A stretch of 54,451 bases of DNA from Candidatus Symbiothrix sp. (GTDB taxonomy: Bacteria > Bacteroidota > Bacteroidia > Bacteroidales > Azobacteroidaceae). Numbering within the stretch: the stretch's first letter is position 1; the number at the start of each line of letters is the position of its first letter. The translations under genes were made by a program, and so were the position numbers. The stretch covers positions 1-54,451 of the forward strand of contig JAISKT010000162.1 in NCBI GenBank assembly GCA_031261295.1. Direction: 5' to 3'. Under the pieces are notes generated by a model. That model saw only the letters and a list, made by a program, of their open reading frames with translations. It was not told the DNA's origin and did not search any database. This document shows, one piece after another, positions 43,261 to 44,451 of the stretch.

Positions 43261-43310
43261 AATTAGGTAACCTATTCTGTAGTTAGGTTTTTGAGGGGCA
43301 AACATTCTCT

Positions 43311-43525
43311 GCAATGATGAAACCGCTCCGCGGTTTTGGGTAGATGGGGTGAGATTTTTTCTACAATAATGCAATCGCTCCGCGATTGGCGGTGGGCATT
43401 ATGGTTCATTTGTATCTGCAATGATGAAACCGCTCCGCGGTTTTGGGTAGCTGGGGATGAGATTTTTTCTACAATAATGCAATCGCTCCGCGATTGGCGG
43501 TGGACATTATGGTTCATTTGTATCT
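43311..43525. repeat. Tandem duplication (about 107-108 bp units), each carrying two REP palindromes
   Basis: gcaatgatgaaaccgctccgcggttttgggtag[a/c]tgggg...ggttcatttgtatct repeated at 43311 and 43418 with minor differences. Confidence 0.9.
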
Positions 43526-43717
43526 ACAATAATGCAATCGCTCCGCGATTGGTGTTTTTTGGTCATCCCCATTGTCGGAGTAAATAATGTCAACGCCGGA
43601 GGCGTTGCATTATTGTAGTTATTAATCAATCTCATATCCCCTACAATCGCGGAGCGATTGCATTATTGTAGTAGCACAAAATAATACCACCTACCACCGT
43701 CAACCGCGGAGCGGTTG
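43320..43717. repeat. Eight REP-like 17-nt palindromes (7-bp stem, TCC/GGA loop) left of the transposase
   Basis: + orientation: 43320-43336, 43372-43388, 43427-43443, 43480-43496, 43535-43551. Inverted: 43591-43607, 43644-43660, 43701-43717. Confidence 0.9.
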
Positions 43718-43827
43718 CATAATTACAGAAATCAGAAAAAAAAACAAATCAATAATATTGGAATTTAATCAAAATTATCTTATTTTTGTACAATATTGTT
43801 TTTAATAATTATTTAATCTCCAGCATT

Positions 43828-44295
43828 ATGCCGAAGCCCAATGTTTACACCCAAATTTACATACAGTTAGTTTTTTCTCCTAAAAATCGGAATGCACTAT
43901 TACACAAAGAAATTCGACCTACTGTATTTTCTTACATTTCAGGAATCGTCGATAAAATGGCGCATAAATCTATTGCTGTTAATGGAATGGCGGATCATGT
44001 TCATATTCTATTCGGACTGGATCCGAAGATTTCAATTTCCGACACTGTTCGCGACATTAAACGTTCATCTTCTTTATTTATCAACTCTAATCATTTATGC
44101 CGTTATAAATTTGAATGGCAGGAGGGCTATGGCGGATTTTCTTATGGTCGGTCTAATTTAAATAAGGTTTATAAATATGTTTTAAATCAAGAAAAACACC
44201 ACCAAAAAATGACATTTAAAACCGAATATACTGGTTTTTTGGATAGATTTGAAGTTCCATACGAAGATCCCTATTTATTTCAATTTTTTGATTAA
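43828..44295 (+). CDS. IS200/IS605-family (Y1/HUH) transposase, RAYT-like
   Basis: MPKPNVYTQIYIQLVFSPKNRNALLHKEIRPTVFSYISGIV; NGMADHVHILFGL (HUH); FEWQEGYGGFSYGRSNLNKVYKYVLNQEKHH (catalytic Tyr). ATG at 43828. Confidence 0.92.
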   Translation: MPKPNVYTQIYIQLVFSPKNRNALLHKEIRPTVFSYISGIVDKMAHKSIAVNGMADHVHILFGLDPKISISDTVRDIKRSSSLFINSNHLCRYKFEWQEGYGGFSYGRSNLNKVYKYVLNQEKHHQKMTFKTEYTGFLDRFEVPYEDPYLFQFFD

Positions 44296-44307
44296 TAAAT
44301 GATAATG

Positions 44308-44439
44308 CAACATCTCCGATGTTGTATTCGGATGGTAGAGACGCGATTAATCGCGTCTCTACGTTATGCAACCGCTCCGCGGTTGACGGTGGTAGGTGGT
44401 ATTATTCTGTGCTCCAATAATGCAACGCCTCCGGCGTTG
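44308..44439. repeat. Three REP-like palindromes right of the transposase plus a 28-bp perfect palindrome
   Basis: 44308-44324, 44369-44385, 44423-44439; GTAGAGACGCGATTAATCGCGTCTCTAC at 44335-44362. Confidence 0.9.
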
Positions 44440-44451
44440 ACATTATAAAAA

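Follow-up and report, generated by a model that had tools for sequence, protein, structure and literature searches.

A likely REP-associated single-strand transposase cassette of TnpA-Y1 subclass 1.2 in Candidatus Symbiothrix sp.

The window analysed here is a stretch of 54,451 nt, contig JAISKT010000162.1 of Candidatus Symbiothrix sp., from the draft assembly GCA_031261295.1 (4.15 Mb in 388 contigs, 88% complete; denoted G000). The gap between prmC and an OmpA-family gene in this window holds tnpA, an open reading frame of 155 aa on the (+) strand (43828–44295) that encodes an HUH/Y1 single-strand DNA transposase with a Y1_Tnp domain, together with 11 REP hairpins, of which five (+) and three (−) precede tnpA and three (+) follow it. 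As stated in a preliminary description of the locus, the transposase gene sits inside two nested inverted pairs, an outer pair of 32 bp that is exact, with no mismatches (43584–43615/44415–44446), and an inner pair of 50 bp with one mismatch (43673–43722/44364–44413). When mismatches were allowed, the outer arms comprised 35 nt at 97% identity (43584–43618/44412–44446) and the inner arms 58 nt at 93% identity (43665–43722/44364–44421).

The left outer arm consists of a REP hairpin followed by CATTATT and GTAG (the latter at 43615–43618), and the right outer arm has CTCC where the complement of the left arm has CTAC. The outermost hairpins have the sequence CAACGCC-TCC-GGCGTTG (43591–43607, − strand, and 44423–44439, + strand). 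The inner left arm, made up of a link and the inner REP, pairs with the inner right arm, and the inner hairpins on both sides read CAACCGC-TCC-GCGGTTG (43701–43717, −, and 44369–44385, +). The two sides are unequal, as had been pointed out: the left side has one additional 53-bp unit between the same neighbours, with the hairpin CAATCGC-TCC-GCGATTG (43644–43660, −) and then GTAG (43668–43671). Directly after the tnpA stop lies the hairpin CAACATC-TCC-GATGTTG (44308–44324, +), and the right side also contains a 28-bp palindrome, GTAGAGACGCGATTAATCGCGTCTCTAC (44335–44362), a GTAG/CTAC double-foot repeat that constitutes a separate family. The inner left and the outermost right REPs are without an intact GTAG in the window. 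All REPs listed in the preliminary description are real, but the list had overlooked an array of five further (+) REPs at 43308–43560 (hairpins 43320–43551, starting at 43320, 43372, 43427, 43480 and 43535, with spacings of 52–55 and direct repeats D1–D3). Because both flanks are built of the same REP units, stacked outward from the gene, they form inverted repeats; the long inverted repeats are thus inverted REP arrays, not terminal inverted repeats (TIRs) of the DDE type.

The pattern ATGCAANNNCTCCGNNNTTG matched 17 times in the window with up to three mismatches, against 5.5 expected (the largest number in 100 shuffles was 11), and its nine exact matches all fell within the prmC–ompA gap. 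With up to one mismatch, the whole genome contained 76 + 79 (≈155) copies, compared to none for the reversed pattern. This enrichment is not a product of chance. Each REP forms a hairpin of 17 nt whose 3-nt loop is conserved as TCC (GGA on the opposite strand) and whose stem varies: among 141 copies, AATCGC was present in 66, AACCGC in 48, AACATC in 20 and AACGCC in three. The stems change on both sides together, and therefore show the covariation of a hairpin. The core AANNGCTCCGCNNTT was counted in 61 genomes belonging to the genus and order, with 141 matches in G000 and 0–6 elsewhere. The REPs are thus not equally abundant in genomes lacking the transposase, a possibility that the preliminary description had raised: the core was near background in 60 relatives, and was abundant only in the tnpA-bearing G000. 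The core matched three times in the sister genome whose enzyme is 88% identical, and two of these matches are the pair adjoining its tnpA. A scan of 13 loci against Rfam yielded no family at the gathering score.

TnpA matched Y1_Tnp (PF01797) with 91 bits and contains the motifs DHVH, WQ and YVLNQEKHH, the last corresponding to the tyrosine motif Y---Q--HH. Residues D56, H57, H59, W97, Q98, Y117, Q121, H124 and H125 were invariant across 30 homologs. The signature described for TnpA-Y1 subclass 1.2 consists of Y---Q--HH, DH[IV]H and WQ in a protein of ≈148–150 aa that occurs in low copy in Bacteroidota and Cyanobacteria (PMC6006769). By its sequence, with Y---Q--HH, DHVH and WQ all in place, TnpA therefore belongs to subclass 1.2, which it also resembles in its length of about 150 aa, its low copy number (one in the genome, plus five paralogs that are ≤45% identical) and its relatives, which were mostly Bacteroidota in the species-level genome collection. 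However, Quentin et al. (2018) list subclass 1.2 as "no" for REPs and as generally without terminal (IS-type) structures (PMC6006769). That description was not matched here: REPs lie on both sides of tnpA, and REP-like hairpins flanked most of the homologs examined.

The preliminary description had interpreted the locus as an autonomous RAYT parent unit with its target repeats. Our results support a parent unit of a transposase, accompanied by REPs that resemble targets, but not its identity as a RAYT. Class-2 RAYTs have the tyrosine motif Y---NP, which is missing from TnpA, and the NCBIfam RAYT model NF047646 scored 23.6 bits, below its cut-off of 80. An AlphaFold model of TnpA (pLDDT 92) had its best PDB matches in the TnpA proteins of IS608 and ISDra2, with the RAYT structure 4er8 a poorer match. 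In a tree, TnpA grouped with two sisters that are 84–88% identical and E. coli RayT formed a very distant branch, with the caveat that the placement of long branches is uncertain. A class-2 RAYT with its REPs would account for a single-copy gene whose flanking REPs are dispersed in the genome. It would, however, be expected to have GT[AG]G at the hairpin's 5′ foot, whereas the tetranucleotide here lies ≈7–9 nt away on the 3′ side, and together with the motif, model score and tree this makes such an assignment extremely unlikely.

The flanks of subclass 1.2 homologs were compared at 58 loci, taken from the species-level genome collection and from the paralogs in the genome itself; 56 of these encode Y---Q--HH. 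A hairpin-bearing repeat common to both flanks, within 400 nt of the gene, was found at 33 of the 58 loci, compared to one of 212 control windows with matching geometry drawn from the same DNA. The criterion (stem of at least 5 bp, loop of 2–5 nt, GC of at least 50%) was the same for real and control windows. It had been relaxed after short stems were seen; under the stricter version (stem of at least 6 bp, loop of 3–5 nt) the counts were 15/58 and 1/232, so that both versions separate real from control windows. The shared-hairpin test failed at 25 of the 58 loci, some of which are cut by contig ends. The hairpins follow a common plan with a stem of 5–7 bp, a 3-nt loop and the tetranucleotide [AG]TAG 15–16 nt from the centre, usually preceded by TT, while the hairpin sequences proper differ between species. 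Of 258 hairpins collected within 330 nt of the genes, 110, from 43 loci, had [AG]TAG 14–17 nt from the centre (shuffle mean 1.15, maximum 4), and the 258 themselves represent an ≈8-fold enrichment over the mean of 30 in dinucleotide-resampled flanks. Neighbouring hairpins were most commonly spaced 49–54 nt apart. As controls, three IS200 loci had hairpins that did not follow the [AG]TAG plan, and in E. coli RayT the GTAG lay on the 5′ side; the Y---Q--HH motif was absent from the subclass 1.1 controls, and E. coli RayT contains YIYINP. Flank hairpins of one plan, shared in this way, give a seemingly orphan group of enzymes a likely target in DNA. Judged from these flanks, subclass 1.2 seems to be a system associated with REPs that have their tetranucleotide on the 3′ side.

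Copies of the unit were also found away from the genes. A search with a generic pattern detected dispersed copies in seven of eight other genomes (up to 21 matches), and nine Flavobacterium genomes had 3–23 matches each, many of them as inverted doublets ≈72 bp apart; the reversed pattern gave none in either case. Dispersed inverted REP doublets, the characteristic feature of REPINs, are thus present, both in Flavobacterium and as (−,−,+,+) blocks in G000. Flavobacterium also carries CTGGACTTCAGTCCAG doublets. In the TTGTAGRGCTGGACTTCAGTCCAG doublets of Flavobacterium (G069–G077), GTAG is located 15–16 nt from one hairpin centre, and the following hairpin begins 2 nt 3′ of the same GTAG. This GTAG occupies both positions, and so links the 3′-tag plan to the 5′-foot plan of RAYT REPs. 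Two further arrangements were observed. In G000, a paralogous TnpA of 45% identity (L004; contig 138, 31548–32003) lies between the arms of a 167-bp inverted repeat (98% identity) that holds two hairpins on each side, which reproduces the nested plan of the window cassette in unrelated sequence. In a Saprospiraceae genome (G062), REP units are arrayed in tandem, three to four at a time and with a period of 48–70 bp, on four contigs (24, 52, 102 and 275).

We considered the possibility that the locus is an ordinary IS200/IS605 insertion sequence of subclass 1.1, bordered by left- and right-end hairpins. The NCBIfam IS200 model NF033573 passed its cut-off (72 bits versus 55), and the fold is nearest to that of the IS608 and ISDra2 enzymes. 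However, such an element would have one subterminal hairpin per end, not an inverted array of three hairpins on each side, and near-identical full-length copies were not seen in a genome that has a single copy and only distant paralogs. The ≈155 dispersed hairpins without a gene, the IS200 controls lacking the [AG]TAG plan and the 1.1 controls lacking Y---Q--HH also argue against this explanation, and we consider it very unlikely. Membership in the RAYTs was rejected on tyrosine motif, model score and position of the tetranucleotide, and membership in the plain IS200 group on hairpin number and single copy.

GC-rich hairpins can serve as transcription terminators or mRNA-stability elements. 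The hairpins do sit in intergenic gaps, and they could in principle be such elements of convergent genes that lie beside tnpA by chance. On the other hand, the units are followed by a fixed [AG]TAG and not by a run of T, and the offset is the same in sequence-unrelated hairpins across the phylum. Given, in addition, their excess over shuffled flanks and the near absence of hairpins common to both flanks in control windows, this explanation seems scarcely credible.

The orthologs in two sister genomes, G006 (88% identical) and G003 (84%), lie in cassettes at loci other than that of the window, one of them between ABC-F and S4-domain genes. These cassettes end in the same REPs as the window cassette, and nucleotide similarity between the window and the sister genomes spans the REP-bounded unit, and whatever else aligned consisted of REP units. 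The cassette is absent from the S4-gene locus of G000 and from the prmC loci of relatives. In the comparison with an empty site that the preliminary description had proposed, these prmC loci did not have the cassette, but the neighbouring genes differ and no junction could be read at the base level. An exact empty site was sought at the prmC and S4-gene loci and none was recovered; synteny differs around the three cassettes. Homology that is confined to the REP-bounded unit and REPs, at different loci, favours the view that the cassette has moved as a whole; the different locations may alternatively be due to rearrangement or horizontal exchange.

G000 contains 50 REP clusters, most of which are complete or truncated forms of a four-hairpin block (−,−,+,+), or tetrad, with spacings of 52–57 within a side and 50, 55 or 61 across the centre. 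The halves of the tetrads correspond to the sequences flanking tnpA in the cassettes of G000, G006 and G003, including an AT-rich end, CTAAATTA, found in the G006 and G003 cassettes, and the blocks therefore look like cassettes without the gene. The five-REP array in the window resembles the tandem halves of type-B tetrads. The 28-bp palindrome forms the centre of type-A tetrads; its family, GTAG...CTAC with a variable but compensated centre, was present in 20 of 61 relatives, with up to 24 copies in G003, and resembles the "double foot" REPs of subclass 2.4 (PMC6006769).

Many tetrads lie within an additional inverted repeat (GTAACTAYTCAG...). Ends of this type abut IS66 tnpC genes in sister genomes (identified by Pfam IS66 domains), where the same ends also occur without REPs. 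IS66 elements are characterized by GTAA ends and 8-bp target site duplications (TSDs). Among 43 untruncated clusters, 14 had two IS66-like ends, 14 had one and 15 had none, so that about two thirds (28/43) had at least one, in a fuzzy test with a background of ≈7% per side. Flanking 8-bp sequences matched at a mean of 4.3 of 8 positions, compared to 2.2 for swapped pairs, and convincing TSDs (6–8/8) were present in six of 13 testable pairs, with CCTTAAAA an example of the 7–8/8 cases. The tnpA cassette itself has no IS66-type ends, and no GTAACTAYTCAG end was found near the single IS66 transposase gene of G000 (C50). A minimal miniature inverted-repeat element (MITE), L208 (contig 362, from 15309), comprises one REP hairpin between IS66-type ends and is bordered on either side by a matching 8-bp repeat, AAACATAA. 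Other tetrads (L115, L116 and L117; contigs 330, 341 and 350) are located inside another repeated context (TTAGGGTAACGCTTCTTATTGG...), twice in tandem in L117, and many REP blocks (at L015, L027, L097, L101, L109, L114 and L119) are bordered by a common AT-rich stretch (approximately AAAAGTAATATCTTTTTTCATATAAACCAAGGAATTAGCAAAAATTAAC). Hitch-hiking on IS66 is well supported for part of the REP burst and, given the IS66-like ends and several 8-bp target duplications, much of the burst probably consists of hitch-hiking on IS66-type MITEs. Because REPs have been captured by IS66, the REP copy number in G000 is no proof of TnpA activity.

Taken further, the hairpins might be passive cargo, with the burst purely an expansion of IS66-type MITEs and tnpA a mere donor of hairpins. 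The frequent IS66-like ends and TSDs, the minimal MITE with its one REP, and the IS66 ends without REPs in sister genomes are all in agreement with this. However, it leaves the 15 clusters without a recognisable IS66 end, the dispersed inverted doublets in Flavobacterium, and the phylum-wide conservation of hairpin–[AG]TAG flanks beside tnpA; nor does IS66 explain the fixed position of [AG]TAG. We therefore regard purely passive spread as unlikely.

Instead, the locus is likely to represent a REP-associated single-strand transposase cassette of subclass 1.2, with TnpA acting on the REPs. In the systems solved for IS608, ISDra2 and RAYTs, dimeric TnpA proteins bind hairpins in single-stranded DNA and cut near a tetranucleotide that is picked by guide base pairing (PMC8266576). 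The unit here is ≈53 bp, composed of a 17-nt hairpin (13–17 nt in relatives), 7–9 nt and [AG]TAG, and inverted arrays of this unit bracket tnpA. A TnpA dimer would bind the hairpins as single strands, presumably on the lagging-strand template, and would cleave near the fixed [AG]TAG, by analogy with the IS200/IS605 and RAYT enzymes. The 3′ [AG]TAG sits where a right-end cleavage site would lie, and might be a cleavage or a recognition site. Cleavage would then move the cassette and the REP units in the manner of those enzymes. The dispersed (−,−,+,+) blocks would be halves of the cassette flanks joined without tnpA, and many appear to have been captured in IS66-type MITEs, where much of the copying was probably the work of a DDE transposase.

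The locus has features in common with several known systems. Like the REPtrons and REPINs of RAYT/TnpAREP (PMC2817692, PMC3116915, PMC8266576), it has a REP-flanked tnpA, dispersed copies and inverted doublets, and the doublet spacing of ≈72 bp in Flavobacterium is close to the 71 bp of P. fluorescens GI. However, the enzyme is of class 1, [AG]TAG is found 7–9 nt 3′ of the hairpin rather than at its 5′ foot, and the blocks have four hairpins. Furthermore, REPtrons reportedly do not relocate as whole units, whereas the cassette occurs at different loci. The fold, the catalytic HUH and tyrosine residues and the hairpin-bordered unit are shared with IS200/IS605 elements of subclass 1.1 (IS608, ISDra2), which differ from the present case with its several hairpins per side in inverted arrays, its single copy and its lack of an adjoining tnpB. 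TIRYT/TIRtrons likewise have a Y1 transposase gene within long inverted repeats (Di Nocera et al., 2013; PMC3733652), but their enzymes are RAYT-like and most of their TIRs are not REPs, while the inverted repeats described here are REP units. Many REP blocks have IS66-like GTAACTAYTCAG ends, several of them with 8-bp target duplications, as in IS66-family MITEs, except that the REP tetrads are carried as cargo and that the tnpA cassette is without such ends.

An association of REPs with transposases was already known. In the open literature searched, which does not include most subscription papers or any preprints, we found no description of REPs in subclass 1.2, of the 3′ [AG]TAG plan or of REP-carrying IS66-type MITEs. 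The IS200-like enzymes of subclass 1.2 had been described with neither IS ends nor REPs, and so without a known substrate; the common hairpin–[AG]TAG unit, found next to most of the genes examined, provides a testable candidate. The evidence is evenly balanced on whether subclass 1.2 as a whole constitutes a further REP–transposase system, distinct from RAYTs and on the IS200/IS605 side, that uses a hairpin unit with a 3′ [AG]TAG, is still mobile as a cassette ending in REPs, and multiplies its repeats in two ways, through its own single-strand chemistry and as cargo loaded into DDE-type MITEs. REP blocks in IS66-type MITEs suggest a second route of multiplication, so that REP copy number alone does not equal transposase activity. 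With a REP-based lifestyle on the IS200/IS605 side, REP association may have several origins or may predate the split between the classes, which bears on how transposases become domesticated.
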